Positions 8,263-20,717 of a stretch of DNA of 21,405 nucleotides are shown in pieces. The notes below the pieces were generated by a model. That model searched no databases, was not told where the DNA came from, and worked only from the letters and a program-made list of their open reading frames with translations. Positions within the stretch are counted from its first letter, which is position 1. Every line of letters starts with the position of its first letter. A program made the position numbers and the translations under genes. The stretch covers positions 1-21,405 of IMG/VR virus record IMGVR_UViG_3300044612_001124; one strand, given 5' to 3'. The DNA is from a virus.

Positions 8263-8790
8263 CTAAACCTGCGTGACGCTGCACGCCAGATACGTTGATG
8301 AACCGCCACTCGGAACGCGGGTTGTGCTCTCGATCTGCATCAGCACTTTGCCTGCGATGATCATGTCTGCGACAGACGTTACGCCGCCGCTGGTCTTTAT
8401 GAAGTACGCGGAGTAGTCATACTCACGAGGGCTTCCCCCAACGGAGTATTCCGGCGTCGCTGAACTGAATGAAGTGCCGAACGGAATGACGAACGTCGCA
8501 ATGTTCGTAACCGTCGAATATGTGCCTGTTATGGTCGTCTTCGCGACGGCTGCCGTTGTAGCGCCCGTCACGACGTATGGCGACGACGTCACCACAGTCC
8601 CGCCTGTGGCTGATATCAGGTTCGATCCGGCCGGGTACTGTATGTTGTTGATCGACGCGAAGTCAGTGAAGACGGGCTGTGCCGTAATCCTGACCGCCGT
8701 CACCGTGTAGGTCGGGCCGCTGCACATGGTGGCAGTCGCCGTCACGTTCGAGGCCGATGTGATCGTGATGTCGTAGGAAGATAGAGCCAT
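8263..8790 (-). CDS. Ser/Thr/Val-rich tail protein, hypothetical
   Basis: I do not recognise a family for this 175-residue product. It is made almost only of Ser, Thr, Val, Ala, Ile and Gly, with a predicted all-beta character (YDITITSASNVTATATMC and later TGTYSTVTNIATFVIPFG), and is nearly free of charged residues until EYSVGGSPREYDYSAYF. Its place after three tube-like genes and before the chaperone genes suggests a tail structural protein, for instance a tube surface or minor tail protein. The start at 8790, five bases after the preceding TAG, is preferred over a TTG at 8811. Confidence 0.6.
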   Translation of the reverse strand: MALSSYDITITSASNVTATATMCSGPTYTVTAVRITAQPVFTDFASINNIQYPAGSNLISATGGTVVTSSPYVVTGATTAAVAKTTITGTYSTVTNIATFVIPFGTSFSSATPEYSVGGSPREYDYSAYFIKTSGGVTSVADMIIAGKVLMQIESTTRVPSGGSSTYLACSVTQV

Positions 8791-8795
8791 TGGGG

Positions 8796-9200
8796 CTAGT
8801 TGCCGTACCAATCAGTAGGCACGAATTTCATCGTTCCTCGAAACACGTCTCCGACAGACGCACCAGACGACGCCGACTCAAGGATCACGTTCTTGGACAG
8901 GCTGTACCCGGTAGCAGAAAAGGTCAAATTCCCAGGCTTCCCAACCATTGAGTCGATGTCCATTGATCCGTTTGTCAGAACAAGGAACTCGACAGTGATC
9001 GCGCCGCCCGTCTTCGCTCCCGTCGGCACTCGGACCATTGAAGTCGTCGTGTCGTAGAGTCCAGTGACGTCCGCTATTTCTGCCTGCGGGGTGTCGACAG
9101 TGACCCTTGTCACGCCGCCGTAGAAACTGCTTCCGCCACCTCTTGGCGCGAAACTGAACGTAGCGCCCTGGGCAGCGACAGCCCTGCCGGTTGGGGGCAT
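8796..9200 (-). CDS. Tail tube-like protein, paralog 3
   Basis: A 134-residue protein with the same overall plan as the two genes before it. VTRVTVDTPQAEIADVTGLYD corresponds to the opening strand and the DVT-containing turn of tube proteins, ITVEFLVLTNGSMDIDSM to the central strand and helix, and SASSGASVGDVFRGTMKF to the closing strand pair of the paralogs. The first 20 residues are Gly-rich. The ATG at 9200 has no good Shine-Dalgarno sequence, and an unnoticed alternative start is possible. The gene ends five bases before the next ATG. Relatedness to paralogs 1 and 2 is seen by eye and is weaker than between those two. Confidence 0.6.
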   Translation of the reverse strand: MPPTGRAVAAQGATFSFAPRGGGSSFYGGVTRVTVDTPQAEIADVTGLYDTTTSMVRVPTGAKTGGAITVEFLVLTNGSMDIDSMVGKPGNLTFSATGYSLSKNVILESASSGASVGDVFRGTMKFVPTDWYGN

Positions 9201-9214
9201 GGGTCAGCCAATCG

Positions 9215-9535
9215 TTAGCGTGAGAACTGAATCGTCGCCTGCGACCGGATGATGTTTCCGACAGCGAACGTCGTGCTCGATGAAATGACGGTGCCGCCGA
9301 GTGCTGATACGCCCGGCGCTGTGAACGCGCCGGATGCTCCGGCCCGTGGGCCGTAGCCCATAAACTCCAGGGTCGCCTCGGAAGCCTCCCGCAGCGGAGC
9401 GGCCTGATACTGCTTCTGCGTATCGAGGAGCGAGGTCACGTCCAACTGTTCCGCGGAGTCGCGGACTGTGACGCTGGCACATGCGTAGGTCGACCCGGCG
9501 AACGTAATTCCGGTGGATGAAAGTGCGGCTGGCAC
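9215..9535 (-). CDS. Tail tube-like protein, paralog 2
   Basis: A 106-residue protein related to its upstream neighbour. The shared C-terminal pattern is TVISSSTTFAVGNIIRSQAT here against TIMSSEVSFRVGEIVGFTTT in paralog 1: eight or nine identities over twenty positions, without gaps. The middle part has the tube-type element EQLDVTSLLDTQKQY. The start is a GTG at 9535 supported by AGGAG nine bases upstream; ATG starts are absent nearby. It is likely to be a second tube or tube-surface subunit, derived from paralog 1 by duplication. Confidence 0.65.
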   Translation of the reverse strand: MPAALSSTGITFAGSTYACASVTVRDSAEQLDVTSLLDTQKQYQAAPLREASEATLEFMGYGPRAGASGAFTAPGVSALGGTVISSSTTFAVGNIIRSQATIQFSR

Positions 9536-9569: not shown

Positions 9570-9905
9570 TTAGGCGTTGGAGGCGCGGACGGTGGTGGTG
9601 AATCCGACGATCTCGCCTACGCGGAAGGAAACCTCGGACGACATGATGGTCGAGCCCGTGAACGTGATCGAGCCGCACGAGAAACTTCCGGTGCTGCCGA
9701 TGGTCAGCGCTGCGCCGAGGTGGTTCACCGTGACGTCGGCCGCATCCTTCAGGCCGGCGATAAACGTCTTGTATCCGTTGTTGGCAATCGCCATGTCCGA
9801 CGTTTCAATCGTCGGCGCGGACTCGTTAATCGTGACTTGCGTCACGTTCGCGACGGTCGCGCCAGCGACGGTAACGGCAACGCCCTGAGAAACAGCAAAT
9901 GGCAT
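9570..9905 (-). CDS. Tail tube-like protein, paralog 1
   Basis: The 111-residue product resembles small tail tube proteins: VTQVTINESAPTIETSDM is a typical opening strand pair before an Asn/Gly loop, and GLKDAADVTVNHLG matches the central helix-strand element. It ends in a strand pair, TIMSSEVSFRVGEIVGFTTT, that is clearly similar to the end of the next gene. AGAGGG lies about ten bases before the ATG. Which of the three or four tube-like products forms the main tube cannot be decided here; this one is directly after the tail terminator, the usual place of the major tail protein gene. Confidence 0.68.
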   Translation of the reverse strand: MPFAVSQGVAVTVAGATVANVTQVTINESAPTIETSDMAIANNGYKTFIAGLKDAADVTVNHLGAALTIGSTGSFSCGSITFTGSTIMSSEVSFRVGEIVGFTTTVRASNA

Positions 9906-12380: not shown

Positions 12381-12590
12381 CTACTTGCGTGGCTTCTTCC
12401 CTGCCTTTGGCGACGCTTCGGCCGTCTCGATCTCCGGCTCGTCGACACTACGCTCGACCACCGGAGCCTTGTCCTTGACCTCCTCGATCAGTCCTCGGGC
12501 GATGAGGAGTTCGCACATGCCGCCCGGCCAATCCTCGAAGACTTGTCCCGGCTCGTAGGCGTCGAAGCCCATGAGGATGCGGACTTTCAT
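12381..12590 (-). CDS. Small protein, hypothetical
   Basis: The product has 69 residues. I recognise only the general type: a short phage protein opening with MKVRILMGFDAYEPGQVFED and ending its folded part with LLIARGLIEEV, then a charged tail rich in Pro, Glu and Lys. Similar small proteins often sit between capsid and connector genes, with no established function that I can assign. The ATG at 12590 overlaps the TGA of the glycosyltransferase gene in an ATGA junction, which decides the start and indicates translational coupling. A longer frame from 12692 runs inside the glycosyltransferase gene and is not credible. Confidence 0.65.
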   Translation of the reverse strand: MKVRILMGFDAYEPGQVFEDWPGGMCELLIARGLIEEVKDKAPVVERSVDEPEIETAEASPKAGKKPRK

Positions 12591-13315
12591 GTGATGGCCC
12601 CCCAGGCTTCCTTGGGTGCCTTCTGTCCGCTGTTCCAATACTCGGTGGAGTGCTGTTGAATCTTGTTGCCGGGGGCTCCAAGACTCGGCCAAGTGACCAT
12701 CAGTTCGCAGTGGCCGACGCTGATGCCGGTTGCCATGCCTAGCGTGTTACCGGCCTCTCGCCACTTGTTCCAGAAGGACACGTCTTCGTCGATGTGGCCG
12801 CCCGTGAACTCCCCGTCTTTGTTCGGAATCGCCTCGAACCAGGGCTTCGGCATCTTCTTGAGCGCCGAGGTGCGGAGGAACGTCAGGCCGAAGTGGGCGG
12901 TTCCCACCAGTTGCACCGGCTTGTCGAACCACTCGCCGCCGACCTGACACTTGTCGTCAGGTGCTACGCCGGGCATGGAGAACATGACCGCGTCGCTCTC
13001 TCGCTTGAGTTGCAGCGGGGCGATTGCGTCGACGCCGCTGTGCATCATCAGGGCGAGGAGAGCCTCGACCGTCTTAGAGTTGAAGACGGTGTCGTAATCT
13101 ATCGTCAGGATGAAGTCGTGCGTATCAATCACGCTCGACATCCCGCGGGCGAGGCACTGGGACCAGTAGGCACCCGTCACCTTGGTAGGCGAGATGCCGT
13201 GTGGTGCCAGTGCCGCCGCCACGCACAGGAGGTTGTCGGTAAACCCGACGCGCGGGGTCGACATGACCGCCGCGACCTTCGCGTCTGCCTCAACATTACC
13301 AACACGCAACTTCAT
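12587..13315 (-). CDS. Glycosyltransferase-like protein, GT-A fold
   Basis: The 242-residue product looks like a nucleotide-sugar-dependent glycosyltransferase. After an N-terminal region with FTDNLLCVAAALAPHG comes DFILTIDYDTVF, in which D73-Y74-D75 is the metal-binding DxD motif at the end of a beta strand. The acceptor half has HIDEDVSFWNKWREAG (residues 174-189), where E177 or D178 is the likely catalytic base, and a late GH (201-202) that fits the extra metal-binding histidine of many GT-A enzymes. The start at 13315 has AAGGAG seven bases upstream; the frame is open to 13477 but that part reads as non-coding. It overlaps the next gene by four bases (ATGA). Sugar and acceptor are unknown; sugar transfer to a virion protein is a possible role. 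Confidence 0.75.
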   Translation of the reverse strand: MKLRVGNVEADAKVAAVMSTPRVGFTDNLLCVAAALAPHGISPTKVTGAYWSQCLARGMSSVIDTHDFILTIDYDTVFNSKTVEALLALMMHSGVDAIAPLQLKRESDAVMFSMPGVAPDDKCQVGGEWFDKPVQLVGTAHFGLTFLRTSALKKMPKPWFEAIPNKDGEFTGGHIDEDVSFWNKWREAGNTLGMATGISVGHCELMVTWPSLGAPGNKIQQHSTEYWNSGQKAPKEAWGAIT

Positions 13316-13397
13316 CGGTTCGCTCCTTTTGACGGGAGCGGGCGCGCTTCCTTGCGCCTTCACCGGCCGGTCATTGGCCGTCCCGCTTGAATCGGGA
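13316..13397 (-). other. Intergenic segment with two short hairpins
   Basis: Immediately after the stop of the small beta-rich gene there is an inverted repeat, TCCCG (13381-13385) and CGGGA (13393-13397), with a 7-base loop, followed on the minus strand by a second GC-rich repeat of GGCC type. Neither is followed by a T-run. It may partly attenuate transcription from the strongly expressed capsid pair into the downstream genes. The segment ends in a strong AAGGAG before the glycosyltransferase start. Confidence 0.35.
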
Positions 13398-13823
13398 TTA
13401 GCCCTTGACCCAGCCGATGCAACCGGCCTCGGCCGCGGTCGACGGAGCGTTCTCGCCACGCGAGAGACGACCCTCAACAGCCACCGCGATCGAAGCAGAC
13501 GGCTGGACGCTGACCTTCAGGTAGCGCTTCCGCACCTTCGTGTCGATGTCCAACTTGACGATCGCCGTGTTCGCCGTGTCGGTCACGGCCGGGATCGTAA
13601 AGTCGGTGCCGCCGACGAAGCCGGTGACGTTCGAGTAGGACGAGTTGTCGTCCGACTCTTCGATCTTCAGCACGCTGGCGAAGGTGGTGGCAGCGTTCGA
13701 CGCCCGAAGGACGGTGAACGAAGCGTAATCGTAGGACTGCGTATCGACGACGAGCGTCGAAACTGACGTTGCAGCCGCCGTAGGCAGCGAGGCAACGATC
13801 TTGTGCATCTGCGAGAAAATCAT
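13398..13823 (-). CDS. Small beta-rich structural protein, probable capsid decoration or head protein
   Basis: I do not recognise a specific family. The 141-residue product is Ser/Thr/Val-rich with alternating polar and hydrophobic residues (YASFTVLRAS, then SVLKIEESDDNSSYSNV and RYLKVSVQP), which suggests a compact beta-sandwich. It has no signal peptide or membrane segment. It begins 30 bases after the capsid gene with a good AAGGAG, so it should be made at a high level like the capsid. That position, just downstream of the major capsid gene, is where head decoration or stabilisation proteins usually sit. The decoration role is inference from position and composition. Confidence 0.6.
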   Translation of the reverse strand: MIFSQMHKIVASLPTAAATSVSTLVVDTQSYDYASFTVLRASNAATTFASVLKIEESDDNSSYSNVTGFVGGTDFTIPAVTDTANTAIVKLDIDTKVRKRYLKVSVQPSASIAVAVEGRLSRGENAPSTAAEAGCIGWVKG

Positions 13824-13853: not shown

Positions 13854-15206
13854 TCAGGACGCGGCGGTCTTGAGAGCGATCACCGGACCCGCCGTGGAGT
13901 TGTCGCCAAGCGAGTGGTGGACGATATCGAACCGCATCGTGCCCTGGAGGAGCAACTGATCGGTCGTGGCGTAGACCTGATCGTACATCCGCACCGAGAA
14001 GTCTCGGCGACGAGCGTAGATCGAGGACAGGCCCAGGTTGGCGAAGAGAACCTTGACCTTGCCGGTGTCAGCACCGAGGGTCGAGTCCATGACATGGACG
14101 AGGTTCACGGGGAAGCCGAGGAACGTCTCGTTGACGCCGCCGCCGACGCTCTCGACGGTGTTACCGCCGGCAGCGTAACGGAGACGAGCCATCGAGGACG
14201 CGAAGCCGGTCGGGCTGATGTACCACTGAGCGCCGCTGCGGGCGTAGAGTGGCATCTTGCCGATGACGTTCACGAAGTCAGCGACCGTGAGAGTCTCGAA
14301 GCCGGTGCGACCCGTGCCCGAGGTGACGACGCTGGCGGTCTTCGTGCCGTCGTTGACGCGGGGGACAGCACCAGTGATGCCGCCGTACTGGGAGGTGCCG
14401 TCACCGATCCAGCCGCAGAGGTCGATCTTGTAGGCGAGGCTCGTCGCGAACTCGGTGGCGACTGCGTCGGCCAGCGAGATCAGGGCGTCCTCGACAACTT
14501 CCGTCGACATCCGCGTGCCAACCGCCAACTTCTTGGCGATCAACTGGACGTTGGCGTAACTCGGCTCGCTCTCGGTGACGGCAGTGCCTTCACCGACGAA
14601 GTAGGCCGTGGTTCCGGTTACCCGCTTCGGAATGATCATCGTGTCGCGGCTCATCGTCACCTTCTCGACGCCCGAGGCGGCGAAGGTGCCGTAGTTTTCG
14701 ACAAGACGAATCACGCGGGCGGCGAACTCTTCCGGCACGAGGATGCCACCAGCCGAGTTGCTTCCCTCGTTGAGGGCGCGGTTCTCGACGCCGTGCTCCT
14801 TGCACCACCGGATGTCGTCGGCGTTCTTGAACACCGCCGCCCGCAGCCATCGGCCGCAGCGGTAGGCGCTCTCGACAGCCTCGGGGCCGTCGTTGAAGGC
14901 CGAGAGTTGCGAGTGATGCGGAGCGATGCCCCGAATCTCGATCTTCTTCGGCTCGTCCTTCACCTCGGCCACGGGGGCCGCGGCAGGGGCCGGAGCGGCC
15001 TTCTCAACGACCGAACGAAGTTCGGCTTCCTTGGCAGCGATCCGCTCCTCGAATTCGAGGTCGGTCTTCACCTGATCGGCCTGGGCCGACAGGGAGAGAA
15101 GTTCCTTGGTCTGGTCCGCGCTGCGGTCCTCGACCGAGGTGAGTTCGGCCATGCGAGCCGAGATACCAGCCGCACGCTCCTGAAGACGCTTGAGATTGCT
15201 CGCCAT
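13854..15206 (-). CDS. Major capsid protein, HK97 fold
   Basis: This is the main shell protein, 450 residues from an ATG with a strong upstream AGGAG. Residues 1-70 form a charged coiled coil (LKRLQERAAGISARMAEL and onward) of the delta-domain type, which serves as internal scaffold. An Ala/Pro linker follows at about 70-80, and the start of the mature chain, probably between 92 and 145, precedes NSAGGILVPEEF (150-161), the usual HK97-type N-arm entry. The body contains TMIIPKR and AYFVGEG strands and a long central helix (MSTEVVEDALISLADAV), as in other HK97-fold capsids. It directly follows the protease that should cleave it. The frame is open further upstream to 15341, but that region lacks capsid character and includes the hairpin. 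Confidence 0.95.
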   Translation of the reverse strand: MASNLKRLQERAAGISARMAELTSVEDRSADQTKELLSLSAQADQVKTDLEFEERIAAKEAELRSVVEKAAPAPAAAPVAEVKDEPKKIEIRGIAPHHSQLSAFNDGPEAVESAYRCGRWLRAAVFKNADDIRWCKEHGVENRALNEGSNSAGGILVPEEFAARVIRLVENYGTFAASGVEKVTMSRDTMIIPKRVTGTTAYFVGEGTAVTESEPSYANVQLIAKKLAVGTRMSTEVVEDALISLADAVATEFATSLAYKIDLCGWIGDGTSQYGGITGAVPRVNDGTKTASVVTSGTGRTGFETLTVADFVNVIGKMPLYARSGAQWYISPTGFASSMARLRYAAGGNTVESVGGGVNETFLGFPVNLVHVMDSTLGADTGKVKVLFANLGLSSIYARRRDFSVRMYDQVYATTDQLLLQGTMRFDIVHHSLGDNSTAGPVIALKTAAS

Positions 15207-15365
15207 GATTGGCCTTGCTCCTGTTGAAGCCGGCCAAACGCGGAATGCGGCGGCCGGCGGGTGTGTGGTTCCCGCAAGCGCGCCGCGTCGTGAATCCTCA
15301 CGTCGCTCGCACTGCCCTACGCGACATCCATCGCGTAGCACTGTGTCTCTACCTGTAGATTAGCG
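15207..15365 (-). other. Intergenic leader of the capsid gene with an 8-bp hairpin
   Basis: This 159-base gap is the longest inside an otherwise tightly packed operon. It contains a perfect inverted repeat, CTACGCGA (15317-15324) and TCGCGTAG (15331-15338), with a 6-base loop. No U-run follows, so it is not a classical terminator; it could be an mRNA-stabilising or processing structure, or part of a promoter region for heavy capsid expression. At the downstream end CAGGAG, about 10 bases before the ATG at 15206, is a clear Shine-Dalgarno sequence. I see no convincing promoter consensus. Confidence 0.55.
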
Positions 15366-17060
15366 TTACTGCTTGCTGCTCTGCAAACGAGTGCGGAGCA
15401 AGACAGCGTTGAGTTCCGCCAACTTGATCTGCGCGGCGAGCCCGTCGTCGTTCGCCGGCGTCTCTTCGACGACCTCGGCGACATTCGTCTCTTCGGCGAC
15501 AACTGCCTCTGCCTCTGTTGCAACTTCTGCAACAACTGCCGCTGAACGCTTCGATTCTTCGCTCATCTTGCCCTCGGGGATGACCCACAACTTGCAGATT
15601 CCATTCTCCGAGATGCTTCCCTGCACCACCTCGCACGCACCGGCCTCGAAGAAGATGCAGTTGCTGCACTTCATGCCGCGTTCGGCGAAGGGGCTGACTT
15701 CGATGTAGTGGGCTCCGGCTGGGCCGCCCTGCGGCCACGGGCCGAACTCGTCGGCAATGCCTTCGAGCGACTCGGCGTAGGCGAGATTCGCAGGCGAGAG
15801 CGTGCCGTATTCCTCGATGTCATCGACGTCACGCTCCTCCTTGCGCTCCATCTGTGCGACTTTTGCCTCGCTCCAACGCTGCCCGGCAGCGCCAGCCCAG
15901 AGCAAAAACGCGACAAAACCCGGAGTCTCTTCGCCGGCCTTGTCCCAGCCGGGCCTCTTGTCGACCTTGTGACGAGCGTGCCACGCACGCATCTTGATGA
16001 CTTTCTCTTTGGTCAGGTTCTCGCGGGATGCGATCTTCTTAGCCCAGGAGATCGTCGCCGGAACGAGCCCGTCGCCGCCGCGGCCCTCTTCGTAGAGTTT
16101 CAGGCCGCGCCGGCAGGCCGCAGCCATGCCGGCCGTCGGCTTCAGGCTCACTTCGCCCTCGCGGAGTTCGCAATCGTCGGCCGTGTCGTCTTCAGATGTT
16201 ACGGAACCGCTGTCCGTTTCGATTTGAGCATCGGTTTCGTTACGCCGCTCGACCCACTTCTGGCCGCTATCGCCGCCGGAGAGGAGCCATTCGACGTGTG
16301 CCGTGGTGCCTGTCCAGTTCGCAGCCTTGGCCGCGAGACAACGCTCCTGCACTTCGGCGAGGTGAGCGACCTCCTCGACGCTGACAACGTCTCGGTTCAC
16401 GATCCGCTCGGCGATCACGAGGAGCCTGGGGTCGATGTCGTCCCGCTTTTCGGCCACTCGGAGGCCGCGCCGGGCCGAGTTCGCCATCGTCTGATTAGGC
16501 CGATAGTTCTCGCCAAGGGCCATTTCGATGGCTCGGCGGCTCACCACGACGCTGGATGCGTCATAGGCGGGTCGAACGACGGGGCCGACATCCTCCAGAA
16601 GGCCAATCGAGCGGATTTCACGCCGCTTCATGCCCTTCTCGTCGGTGCTCCAGATGTCGCCGCCGTTCTTTCTGACCGCGAAGGCGAACGAAGACCCGGT
16701 GACGAGTCGCTCTTTCACCATAGTTGCGACATCTTCGGCGTCACGAGTCGCCGGAAGCGACATTTCGTAGCGCAAACCGTAGCCATCGACCGACAACTTG
16801 AGCGATCCGTTGCTGGAACGGGCGAGCAACTTGTTTTTGTCGTGGTTGTAGAGCCCGAGGACGTCAGGTTTCGACGAAAGCACGTCGTCGAACGCCTTGG
16901 GATGCACGGTTTCGATGAAACCGCCCAGGTTTCGGCTCTCGGAGTTGAAAACGGCCCCGTAACCGACGATTGTCGGCCGCTTTTCGCCGTCTCCGGCGTC
17001 TCGATACTCGACCGTAGCGTCCGAAAGGGTGATCCGGCGCTCAATTTCCTGCGTTGACAT
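15366..17060 (-). CDS. HK97-type prohead maturation protease with duplicated accessory domains and a four-cysteine domain
   Basis: The enzyme is expected to trim the capsid N-terminal scaffold inside the prohead. The peptidase domain covers about residues 8-180, with H73 in YNHDK, S124 in GSSFAF and E156 in LLEDVGPV as the likely catalytic set of the S78 (HK97 gp4-like) family. Two diverged copies of one accessory domain follow at about 192-273 and 312-406; each begins with ARRGL or CRRGL and ends with GQKW or GQRW after a Leu-Leu segment. Next comes a compact domain with C465, C468, C476 and C489, resembling HiPIP-like modules I know from phage proteins, then an Ala/Val/Glu-rich tail. At 564 residues it is far longer than typical proteases of about 200. 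The ATG at 17060 follows AGGTGG, so it is preferred over 17096. Confidence 0.92.
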   Translation of the reverse strand: MSTQEIERRITLSDATVEYRDAGDGEKRPTIVGYGAVFNSESRNLGGFIETVHPKAFDDVLSSKPDVLGLYNHDKNKLLARSSNGSLKLSVDGYGLRYEMSLPATRDAEDVATMVKERLVTGSSFAFAVRKNGGDIWSTDEKGMKRREIRSIGLLEDVGPVVRPAYDASSVVVSRRAIEMALGENYRPNQTMANSARRGLRVAEKRDDIDPRLLVIAERIVNRDVVSVEEVAHLAEVQERCLAAKAANWTGTTAHVEWLLSGGDSGQKWVERRNETDAQIETDSGSVTSEDDTADDCELREGEVSLKPTAGMAAACRRGLKLYEEGRGGDGLVPATISWAKKIASRENLTKEKVIKMRAWHARHKVDKRPGWDKAGEETPGFVAFLLWAGAAGQRWSEAKVAQMERKEERDVDDIEEYGTLSPANLAYAESLEGIADEFGPWPQGGPAGAHYIEVSPFAERGMKCSNCIFFEAGACEVVQGSISENGICKLWVIPEGKMSEESKRSAAVVAEVATEAEAVVAEETNVAEVVEETPANDDGLAAQIKLAELNAVLLRTRLQSSKQ

Positions 17061-17529
17061 CGCCCACCTGATTTGTGAGGTAGTTTTCGAGCCCAATCTG
17101 GCTGATCACCAGACGAATTGCCTCGATGTTCGCCATCGAGTCTTCGCTTCCACGACGAAGACTCGCGAAAATCTTGGCCGAGGTGCTGTCGCCGAGGGTC
17201 GTGCAAAGCAGGAACCCTGATTGCTCCGCGTCTGCGGCGACCACATCGGTGTCGTAGTTGCTGTCGAGGATGCCCTCGAAGTCGTGGCGGGGCCACGAGA
17301 GGTGCTCGAAGTCGGTTGCCGGGGCAGCGTCGAAGAATTCGAGCCGCTCGGAGAGTGTTTTGATGTGGCCGCGCTCTTCCGCAGCATAGGCAGCCCACGC
17401 GACAGCCAGTTTCCCGTAGCCCCAGCGGCCAAAGTGAGTGGCCTGGAGGTCATACATCTCGGCCTGACCCCAATGGAGACGCAGCGCGAGTTGAAGTGCT
17501 TCGACAACGCCGTTAAGCGGGGCTGGCAT
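17041..17529 (-). CDS. Bacterioferritin-like (ferritin-fold) protein within the head module
   Basis: The 162-residue product matches bacterioferritins (about 158 residues) in length and in order of landmarks: Y26, W36-G37, E52-x-x-H55, SERLEFFDAAP at 60-70, and a near-diagnostic C-terminus, IGLENYL at 145-151. Bacterioferritins oxidise and store iron in 24-subunit shells. Aligned by eye without gaps to E. coli Bfr (offset +1), the di-iron ligands are only partly kept: E51 and H54 are present as E52 and H55, E94 becomes D95, E18 becomes H19, and E127 and H130 become S128 and S131. The haem ligand M52 is R53. Iron oxidation may thus be altered or lost. The gene overlaps the portal gene by 17 bases and the protease gene by 20, so it is a fixed part of the operon. 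A different ferritin-fold family, for example Dps-like, is possible. Confidence 0.75.
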   Translation of the reverse strand: MPAPLNGVVEALQLALRLHWGQAEMYDLQATHFGRWGYGKLAVAWAAYAAEERGHIKTLSERLEFFDAAPATDFEHLSWPRHDFEGILDSNYDTDVVAADAEQSGFLLCTTLGDSTSAKIFASLRRGSEDSMANIEAIRLVISQIGLENYLTNQVGDVNAGN

Positions 17530-19153
17530 TGGTGTTTTCCCCGTGTGCTTCGTACCAAGTTTCGATCACGGTTTCGTACTTCTGTCCGCTTCGGTGACAT
17601 CCCAGAAGAATGTCCTTCGAGCGACCCATCCACGATAGCACGAAAGAGTCAATGTCGCGGCCAGTAGCATTCGCAGCGTCGCGTAGTTCCGCGCACATTC
17701 GCGTCTGCATCTGATCGAACCAAGCGGTGAGTTTCTCGGGCTTGTTGCGTCGCTCGATGATGCCGTCGGCCTCGGTGGCGGCGAGGCGTCGAAGATTCGT
17801 GCGGAAGATGACTTCGTTCGTGTCGATGCTTCGCGACTCCTCGTCTTCGACTTCGTCGTCCGACGGCTCGTCTTCCTGCACCGGAGGGGTGGGTCGCACC
17901 TGATCCTGGCTGGGCTTTTGGCCGGTCGGGTTGTCAGTGGTGAATGCTTCGAGGAGTTGCATATTGACCTGAACGAAACGCTTCTTGCCCAGGCCGTCCG
18001 GCAGCGGGTTGTAGCCGATCGCGGCGCGGTACTCGTCGACGTCGATGGCACCGTTATTGAACGCTTCGCGGAGGAACTGAGCCCGCGCCTGATAGTCGCC
18101 GGCGAGGAGAGCATTCGTGTCGAAGGAGACGAAATAGTTCTTGTCGTCCACCACGAGGTCGCGCCGGCAGGCCATTTCCCAGCGTCGAAGCCACGGCGTG
18201 AGCGAGAAAGTCACGAAGTCGATGGCCGACTGTTCGGCCGTCGAGAAGCGGACGTTGCTGAAATCACCGATCAAATGGGGCGGCACTCTGTAGACTCGAC
18301 TCACATCCTCAAGTTGATAGCGCCTGGTGGACACCAGTTCAGCACTCTGATTGTCAACCGGGTCGTTTTTCTTGTGGAAGCCATACGGCATGACCACAGT
18401 TTTGAACGCTTTGTTCGGCCCCTGATGAGCCTCGTCCCACTGTTGCTTGAAACGCTGAATAGCCTCGGGCTTGTGAGGCTGATCGGTTTCGATGTAAGTG
18501 CCTGCCTGTGCTCCATTCCCAAAAAACGACGACGAGTGCAGTTCCGTCGCTCTAGCGAGGCCGATCGCGTCTCGGGATAGGGTGGTGGGCACAAATCCTG
18601 TGACCCCATCCGATGAAAGCCAGCGAAGATGAAAAATTTCGTCCTGTCGATACTCGGTGACCTTGATCTCCGGCTGGATCGGCGTGGTTGGCTCGGTGTA
18701 GTAGTAGCGGAGTTTGCCGTTCGAGAGCCGCTTGACCTCCATCCGCGAGGGGTGGAGCGGGATGAGTTCGCTGACGGCACCGTTGCGGCCCGGCTTGATG
18801 TACGAGTAGGCGTTGCCCCACAACAGGAGCCACGACTGCATGAGTTCGCGGTACTCGAACCCCGTCATCCACGAATTGGGCTGATAGCAGAGCACCTCGT
18901 GGAGGTGCTGCTCCTCGGCGATCTCCTTGCCGCCGCCTGGGAGGCGTCGATAAACGCCCATCGGGAGGCTGGCAATTGACTCCGAGAGGACGCGGACGCA
19001 GGCGAGAACCGCGCTGCATTCGAGAGCCGTCTCGGGACTGATCGTGACGCCGGCGACCGTTCGCCTCGTGTTGACGATCTCCTCGAAAATGCGAGAGAGG
19101 TTGCTCCGCATCTCGATCAGGTCGGCGACTTCTTCGTCTTCTCTTACGGCCAT
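17513..19153 (-). CDS. Portal protein, HK97 family
   Basis: The portal is the dodecameric ring at the unique capsid vertex through which DNA enters and leaves. The family signature appears early as SAVLACVRVLSESIASLPM followed by GVYRR (residues about 47-70), then the usual mixed stem and wing region with RVPPHLIGDF. From the ATG at 19153 the protein has 546 residues. The frame is open to an ATG at 19243, which would overlap the large terminase gene by 62 bases and add a Pro-rich 30-residue leader; I prefer 19153, though neither start has a clear ribosome-binding site. After a Pro- and acid-rich linker (near residues 390-425) comes a helical C-terminal extension of about 120 residues. Its 3' end overlaps the ferritin-like gene by 17 bases. 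Confidence 0.95.
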   Translation of the reverse strand: MAVREDEEVADLIEMRSNLSRIFEEIVNTRRTVAGVTISPETALECSAVLACVRVLSESIASLPMGVYRRLPGGGKEIAEEQHLHEVLCYQPNSWMTGFEYRELMQSWLLLWGNAYSYIKPGRNGAVSELIPLHPSRMEVKRLSNGKLRYYYTEPTTPIQPEIKVTEYRQDEIFHLRWLSSDGVTGFVPTTLSRDAIGLARATELHSSSFFGNGAQAGTYIETDQPHKPEAIQRFKQQWDEAHQGPNKAFKTVVMPYGFHKKNDPVDNQSAELVSTRRYQLEDVSRVYRVPPHLIGDFSNVRFSTAEQSAIDFVTFSLTPWLRRWEMACRRDLVVDDKNYFVSFDTNALLAGDYQARAQFLREAFNNGAIDVDEYRAAIGYNPLPDGLGKKRFVQVNMQLLEAFTTDNPTGQKPSQDQVRPTPPVQEDEPSDDEVEDEESRSIDTNEVIFRTNLRRLAATEADGIIERRNKPEKLTAWFDQMQTRMCAELRDAANATGRDIDSFVLSWMGRSKDILLGCHRSGQKYETVIETWYEAHGENTNASPA

Positions 19154-19181
19154 GTTGTGTCGCGGCGTGGAGGATAAGAGG

Positions 19182-20717
19182 TCAGAAGACCACCAGTTCG
19201 GGGGCTTCTTCGGGGCCGCGGGCGTCGCCGGAAGCGATGCCAATAGCCATCACGAGAGCAACGGCAGAGTCGATCCTGGCCGTCGAGTGAGAGTGAGCCT
19301 TGGTCGGCTTGATATTCCCGGCGTCGTCGGTGCGGACCTGAAGGTTCGACATTTGGTAGGTCAGCGCCGGGTTTCCGCCGTGTCGTAGTTTTTGCCCCAA
19401 AACGAGCGTCGACAGAAATTTAGTGGCCGGACTCATCGAGGCGTAGCCTTGTCCGAACGGCCTGACTTCAATCCCGTCAGACGTCAACTGCGTCGTAATG
19501 TGCGTGGCGTTCCACCTGTCAATGGCTACGGCTCGGACCTGATTCTTCTCGCAGAACGAGAGAACGTAGTTCCGAACGACGTCGTAATCGACAATATCGC
19601 CTTCTGTTAGTGTAACAAACCCATCTCTCGCCCATTGCCGGTACGGCGCTTCGTCCTTGTCAGCGTTGGACTCTGGCAGAAAGAGGTGAGCGAAGACATC
19701 GAACGTGCCGTCGTGGTTGCCGTCGAGGTCGATGCCCGGCCAGACAGCCACGAACGCGGTCGTGTCTTGGGTGCTCGACAGGTCGAGCCCGCAGTAGCAG
19801 GAGAGGTTGGAGGTGTCGCGAAGCGGTGCGTCGCACTTCTCGAACTGGCCTGTCCTGAAGAAACGGTTGGCTCCGTTGCTCACCCACTGATTCAGGTAGA
19901 GCGTCTTGAACTTGATCTCCTGTGCGACGCTCTCGCGTGCCAGATTGGCCTCGCGTTCGAGAAACTCTTTCCGCACAGTGATGTTGTAGTTCGGATTTGC
20001 CTTGGCCCAGGTGGCCTCCTCGAAGATGTCGTCGGTATCATCCGCAGCCCAGATACACGGCAAAAACGTCGGGTCGATGAGGAGTCCCTGTTGAATCTTC
20101 AGCGCCCGCTGCCACTCCTCGTAGCAGGGGCCGACGCGGTCCATGCCGGCTGTGGTGACGTAGATGACGAGCGGCTCGGCTCGCGCACCCATACCTGATT
20201 CGAGGACGTCGATAAGGTCGCGGTTCTTCTGGACGTGGAATTCGTCCACGATGACCACACTCGGATTGAAGCCGTGTTTGCCCTTGTGCTCGCTGGAAAG
20301 GAACTGAATCGTCGACTTCTTGTGAGGGACGACGATCGAGCCCTTGTAGATTTTGCATCGCTTCAGAAGGCCAGGGCATGACTCGATGTATCGAGAACAC
20401 GCCGTGAACAGGAGACTCGCCTGCTTCCTGTCGCCGGCGGCGATGAGAATCTGGCCGCCGTCAGCCCCGAAGAATGCTTCGTAGGCTCCGATTACGGCAC
20501 AGAGGGCCGTCTTTCCATTCTTGCGAGGCACCGCTACCAGAGATCGCTGATACGTCCGCAGTCCGTCGGCTCTCTTCGTGTTGAAGAGTTTGTCGAGGTA
20601 GTCGTCCTGCCAGGGCTGTGGCACGAACGGCTGCCCAGAGAATGGAGCCTCGGTATGTTTGAGCAACCGCGCGAAAGCGCGAATGTCAACCTGCGGCGGC
20701 GTCGCCAAAGAGTGCAT
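19182..20717 (-). CDS. Phage terminase large subunit (packaging ATPase and nuclease)
   Basis: This is the motor that translocates DNA into the prohead and cuts the concatemer. Its 511 residues are full length for the HK97-like Terminase_1 type. The ATPase half shows a Walker A variant, VPRKNGKTA at residues 63-71, a Walker B strand VVIVDEF at 154-160 with D158 and E159, and a coupling-type segment VIYVTTAG at 184-191. The C-terminal RNase-H-like nuclease half has the three expected acidic residues: D312 in GLDLSS, D400 in AIDRWN, and D483 in RIDSAVA. The gene begins inside the 3' end of the small terminase gene and is followed by the portal gene, the standard packaging order. The start at 20717 has no strong Shine-Dalgarno sequence, which fits translational coupling. 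Confidence 0.97.
   Translation of the reverse strand: MHSLATPPQVDIRAFARLLKHTEAPFSGQPFVPQPWQDDYLDKLFNTKRADGLRTYQRSLVAVPRKNGKTALCAVIGAYEAFFGADGGQILIAAGDRKQASLLFTACSRYIESCPGLLKRCKIYKGSIVVPHKKSTIQFLSSEHKGKHGFNPSVVIVDEFHVQKNRDLIDVLESGMGARAEPLVIYVTTAGMDRVGPCYEEWQRALKIQQGLLIDPTFLPCIWAADDTDDIFEEATWAKANPNYNITVRKEFLEREANLARESVAQEIKFKTLYLNQWVSNGANRFFRTGQFEKCDAPLRDTSNLSCYCGLDLSSTQDTTAFVAVWPGIDLDGNHDGTFDVFAHLFLPESNADKDEAPYRQWARDGFVTLTEGDIVDYDVVRNYVLSFCEKNQVRAVAIDRWNATHITTQLTSDGIEVRPFGQGYASMSPATKFLSTLVLGQKLRHGGNPALTYQMSNLQVRTDDAGNIKPTKAHSHSTARIDSAVALVMAIGIASGDARGPEEAPELVVF

Follow-up and report, generated by a model that had tools for sequence, protein, structure and literature searches.

Ferritins are known from phages. 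A role in the defence against ROS has been proposed for the ferritins of freshwater phages (PMC6802176), and the bacterioferritin of a lake-sediment virus was already known (PMC10904782). As regards the cellular protein, Tyr114 and Arg30 are important in the assembly of the E. coli bacterioferritin. In other bacterioferritins, the mutation of Glu128/Glu135 or of Arg61 has been shown to give dimers and no cages (PMC3179174). The building blocks of the present case, phage-borne ferritins, are therefore known; in the open-access literature searched, neither a bacterioferritin with a constant place between the genes for portal and protease nor the rewritten site reported below was found described.

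The window, that is, the whole stretch of 21,405 nucleotides analysed here, is a 21-kb viral record, and every gene-bearing relative is a metagenomic contig. Its head operon is read in the order terminase large subunit, portal, ferritin, S78 protease and HK97 capsid, with the following features:

19182..20717, minus strand: terminase large subunit, context (phrog_9, E 1.3e-141; PF20441, PF03354)
17513..19243, minus strand: HK97-type portal gene, the upstream partner (PF04860, E 1.6e-87; TIGR01537)
17041..17529, minus strand: bacterioferritin-like accessory gene, 162 aa, complete ORF with ATG start
15366..17060, minus strand: prohead protease (S78) with a long C-terminal tail, the downstream partner (PF04586, E 3.6e-37; TIGR01543)
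13854..15341, minus strand: HK97-fold major capsid protein, context (PF05065; TIGR01554)

The original prediction, made on the letters of the window, was of a complete bacterioferritin-like gene at 17041-17529 overlapping both head genes, with an ExxH pair and a C-terminus of the IGLENYL type. All of this is found in the DNA: the ORF shares 17 nt with the portal ORF and, if the protease starts at the ATG at 17060, 20 nt with that gene; the translation includes E52 and H55 and ends in QIGLENYLTNQV.

The assignment to the ferritin superfamily, which had been left to profile searches and a predicted model, was confirmed by both. PF00210 matches the window protein at E 1.8e-5 (25.1 bits, above the gathering score of 24.5) and all 16 of the family members tested, the best at E 4.4e-14. 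The bacterioferritin profile TIGR00754 gives E 2.3e-8, at 34.2 bits and thus below its equivalog cut-off of 125.55, and PDB entry 4am2 is matched at E 6.6e-9; the phage family profile reaches the bacterioferritins of the PDB at E 3e-20. No PHROGs profile, of a head protein or otherwise, was found for the window protein at E <= 1. The AF2 model, of a single chain and from 12 family sequences (pLDDT 90.1), contains the four-helix bundle of the superfamily and, moreover, the five-helix subunit of bacterioferritin with its short helix E: helices 8-35, 39-65, 84-112, 115-145 and 147-153 correspond to A-E, and 154 residues superpose on bacterioferritin with a Z of 24.3 and an rmsd of 1.0 A (VIA), in the bacterioferritin register, window residue n+1 lying on bacterioferritin residue n. 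Judged by sequence and model, the window protein is a bacterioferritin homologue and does not resemble one by chance. A Dps mini-ferritin was discarded, since residues 66-83 (the BC loop) have no helix and helix E exists, and so was Dps-like DNA binding, because the fold is wrong and the pI acidic (4.6, as in cellular bacterioferritins and unlike DNA-binding proteins).

The metal and heme sites were compared in 49 different phage proteins, in bacterioferritin numbering (window number minus one), the site geometry being based on the alignment register. The positions concerned lie in the window as follows:

17473..17475, minus strand: codon of H19 (bacterioferritin Glu18), His in 49/49
17365..17376, minus strand: codons of E52-R53-G54-H55 (Glu51, heme Met52, His54), Glu and His in 49/49, Met never
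17245..17247, minus strand: codon of D95 (bacterioferritin Glu94), Asp in 24/49 and Glu in 25/49
17137..17148, minus strand: codons of S128-E129-D130-S131 (Glu127, Glu128, 129, His130), ferroxidase Glu and His replaced, Glu128 kept

The six ligands of the classical ferroxidase (Glu18, Glu51, His54, Glu94, Glu127, His130) are not found together in any of the 49 proteins. Position 18 has changed from Glu to His and position 127 from Glu to Ser in all of them, and position 130 from His to Ser or Ala, while Glu51, His54 and an acid at 94 are retained throughout; two of the six ligands are thus lost, a third has become His, and a fourth is Asp in half of the proteins. The heme ligand Met52 is replaced by Arg (46 proteins), Phe (2) or Leu (1). 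The ExxH pair is therefore present as predicted, but it overstates the iron chemistry, and the loss of two ligands and the change of a third make iron oxidation of the classical type unlikely; the phage ferritin would have lost both the classical ferroxidase and the heme. In window numbering, H19, E52, H55 and the acid at 95 persist in all 49 proteins, even where identity falls to about 45%, and form a possible single-metal site. Other residues beyond this site are also invariant in the family, e.g. R35-W36-G37-Y38 and R81-H82-D83. Among the cage contacts, Arg61 (49/49), Glu135 (49/49) and Glu128 (48/49) are kept and the interface residues Arg30, Asp56 and Tyr114 are altered, which suggests that the contacts are in part under selection. 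On these alignments, the phage protein differs from an ordinary bacterioferritin in that its catalytic and heme sites are rewritten and its cage salt-bridge residues Arg61/Glu128/Glu135 are retained.

The gene order of the window recurs among relatives. A search with ferritin as the sole query found 30 viral contigs, and wherever the neighbour lies on the contig the portal gene is upstream (29/29 loci) and the protease gene downstream (29/29), so that the portal-ferritin-protease order sought in other phages is general at every locus that can be assessed on either flank. A search based on the portal, with 80 loci kept, gave 44 with ferritin at the same site, 33 without and 3 cut off inside the portal gene. 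The dN/dS of the ferritin gene is 0.02-0.21; synonymous changes greatly exceed non-synonymous ones, which indicates that the protein is used, and the phage ferritins are a real family under purifying selection. No second ferritin copy was found elsewhere on the 10 ferritin-less records searched whole, which may be fragments, and none of 41 candidates in bacterial genomes was a close relative. Isolated phages gave matches of 21-41% identity only, the window protein reaching E 3e-4 at best; some of these hits, several in number, are annotated as ordinary bacterioferritin.

The presence of ferritin on the portal tree requires at least six changes, and two losses have left scars. The protease gene of L062 and L067 opens with what were the six initial codons of ferritin (MPQPDN), the near-identical L069 having the whole gene; in L041 the last ferritin helix now forms the end of the portal protein (QIGLDNYLVNKVQE). 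In L058, whose close relatives have the gene, ferritin is cleanly absent. In ferritin-less relatives the portal gene ends at or inside the protease start. Furthermore, the ferritins fall into two sequence groups, A (the window, with Asp95) and B (with Glu95), a label which needs 10 changes on the portal tree. For the pair L060 and L025, DNA identity drops from 94% in the portal flank to 61% within ferritin and rises again to 87% in the protease flank; the corresponding values for L045 and L021 are 93%, 63% and 91%. A and B alleles have thus been swapped between close phages, always at the same address. Repeated loss with deletion scars and allele exchange mark an optional, dispensable cassette, and loss with intact head genes argues against an essential structural part. 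Ferritin is thus an accessory gene with a single address, where flank recombination maintains and exchanges it, and not a required part of the head. The conserved position in the head operon is supported, but the original prediction that the gene is native to the operon, as opposed to a stray insertion, is too strong in view of the losses and the exchange.

As to its origin, the phage ferritins group in a single clade, and its branch is very long, with 2.5-3.5 changes per site separating it from the sampled host proteins. Among the planctomycete bacterioferritins sampled, Ser127 and Ser130 are each found in 12/20, and Ser130 is found in 0/21 proteobacterial ones; the best profile score is 87 bits for planctomycetes versus 79 for proteobacteria. 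This motif, of planctomycete and not proteobacterial type, suggests an old capture from a planctomycete-like bacterioferritin, a lead drawn from two sampled phyla and across a long branch. A portal match at E 1e-100 was found in 1/392 planctomycete and 0/398 proteobacterial genomes; the one genome, a Planctomycetaceae MAG, has a close portal (58%) without ferritin, and has no match to the ferritin family profile at E <= 1. A planctomycete host is tentative for this phage lineage. On the cellular side, many planctomycete bacterioferritins (L114-L127) have Ser/Thr and Ser instead of the ferroxidase Glu127 and His130, together with Glu18 and the heme Met52, and by their sequences they may be a distinct cellular type.

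Several other features of the window were observed. The protease tail has, at 15585-15668 (minus strand), four invariant cysteines (CxNC...C...C..W), as in a high-potential iron-sulfur protein (HiPIP). The profile of the tail family matches in the PDB only four HiPIP-type entries (best E 5e-4), the predicted model of the tail is of low confidence, and the capsid maturation protease of Actinomycetia phage DSL-LC01 has a similar tail, with a gene annotated as HiPIP nearby. The association between ferritin and this tail was 29/35 versus 2/21 with a narrow motif, which missed the C..[LM]H variant, and 50/57 versus 7/24 loci with a looser one, near-copies being counted; the link was dropped, since only about 2/5 independent pairs on the tree support it. 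Between protease start and capsid, seven relatives (L005, L011-L014, L025, L029) have the protease split or extra stretches inserted, with tblastn pieces 0.6-1 kb apart, as if their protease tail were a mosaic with insertions. Elsewhere, two adjacent small genes at 9215-9535 and 9570-9905 (minus strand) are paralogues (29% identity, E 6e-13), and two further small genes, 8796-9200 and 8263-8811, are possible members of this tail-protein series. A weak glycosyltransferase-like gene at 12587-13477 (minus strand; PF13632, E 3.6e-4, below cut-off; phrog_1574) is kept in the head-tail region of nearly all relatives.

The function that we favour, tentatively and at somewhat less than an even chance, is that of an optional, late-expressed, heme-less and non-classical metal-binding cage, which would buffer metal and limit oxidative damage. 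A bacterioferritin-derived gene would have been captured once by the phage lineage and retained as an optional one at a fixed site of the head operon, where ferritin would be co-produced with portal and protease; the overlaps between the genes make late timing and translational coupling probable. The product would form a cage of the bacterioferritin type with neither heme nor a classical diiron ferroxidase, metal would be bound by His19, Glu52, His55 and Asp/Glu95, probably as one ion per subunit, and the cage would buffer or sequester iron, or another divalent metal, and so reduce oxidative damage during the building of capsids. Losses with scars show the gene to be dispensable, as expected for an accessory function. 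Against this reading, ferritin was never found outside the gap between portal and protease, and a general metabolic accessory gene would not usually be so confined; moreover, the cage-contact residues Arg30, Asp56 and Tyr114 have changed.

The invariant position in every assessable locus of the ferritin search, and swaps of alleles always at one address, would also fit a ferritin subunit or cage that is bound inside the prohead or to its surface, a dispensable internal or decorating component comparable to the ferritin cargo of encapsulins. HK97-fold encapsulins do load ferritin-like cargo (PMC8346489, PMC8229669) and BFVD holds phage proteins named prohead protease with a ferritin-fold match, but the residues after NYL are 4-11 and unconserved, with nothing past helix E like a loading tag or an encapsulin targeting extension, and close relatives manage without ferritin. 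Dispensability and the missing tail disfavour an essential or encapsulin-type cargo role, and we consider head association somewhat unlikely, presence in the virion being possible. In its boldest form, a viral counterpart of ferritin-loaded encapsulins in which a cage or subunit, binding metal through a new His-Glu-His-acid site, would travel with the prohead, perhaps working with the HiPIP-like module of the protease tail, it appears rather unlikely. A similarly low probability is given to mixed cages, in which phage subunits would join host bacterioferritin, lower the number of heme and ferroxidase sites and alter the storage or release of host iron. Such hetero-oligomers occur naturally (PDB 9iig, 9bts, 9h1u), contact residues are retained while Met52 and catalytic residues are gone, and the Ser127/Ser130 pattern is common to phage and planctomycete proteins; however, the host is tentative, the only MAG with a related phage has no family match at the threshold given above, and the branch of 2.5-3.5 changes per site sets the phage proteins far from any sampled host protein. 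Finally, the bundle could have been co-opted without metal: it would only help portal or protease to assemble, through protein-protein contacts, and its metal site would be vestigial. The lost ferroxidase and heme ligands and the many invariant residues off the metal site would agree with this. It is quite improbable, as the gene is dispensable and the conservation of H19, E52, H55 and the acid at 95 would be difficult to account for if these residues had neither a metal nor a structural role.

Whatever the function, a captured iron-storage gene occupies a single, constant position within an operon for virus assembly. Phages that are almost identical but differ in having or lacking ferritin are natural matched pairs, which makes its role testable, and the family is a natural series in which catalytic and heme sites are rewritten and cage contacts stay. 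A finding of the protein in particles would connect phage heads with the theme of ferritins and encapsulins, and with the question of virion iron.

Compared with known systems, the BFVD proteins A0A6J7WIS1, A0A6J7WPK9 and A0A6J7XDU5 (named prohead protease or Dps) share a ferritin-type bundle, but the matches are weak (TM normalised by query 0.56-0.69) and the proteins long or fused; those named prohead protease hint that some other phages have head proteases joined to a ferritin or Dps domain. The environmental-phage ferritins and bacterioferritins are alike in being a phage-borne family with a proposed iron/ROS role, whereas the accessible parts of PMC6802176 and PMC10904782 report them as accessory metabolic genes and describe neither a fixed position between portal and protease nor a rewritten metal site. 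The encapsulin systems (PMC8346489) also place a ferritin-family gene near an HK97-fold shell gene, but the phage locus is a full head module with a five-helix bacterioferritin and no cargo-loading tail; the encapsulin ferritin cargo model NF058679 matches 4 of 16 family members, at best at E 0.0035. The planctomycete bacterioferritins with S-E-x-S in helix D (L114-L118, L120-L124, L126, L127) share Ser (or Thr) 127 and Ser130, yet they are cellular and have Glu18 and heme Met52, and a very long branch lies between them and the phage clade. Bacterioferritin itself (TIGR00754; PDB 4am2, 1bcf) shares with the phage protein its length, five helices, register, IGLENYL C-terminus, Glu51, His54, Arg61, Glu128 and Glu135; the phage protein differs by its identity of about 20-25%, Glu18 to His, Glu127 to Ser, His130 to Ser or Ala, the lost Met52 and its place in a head operon.
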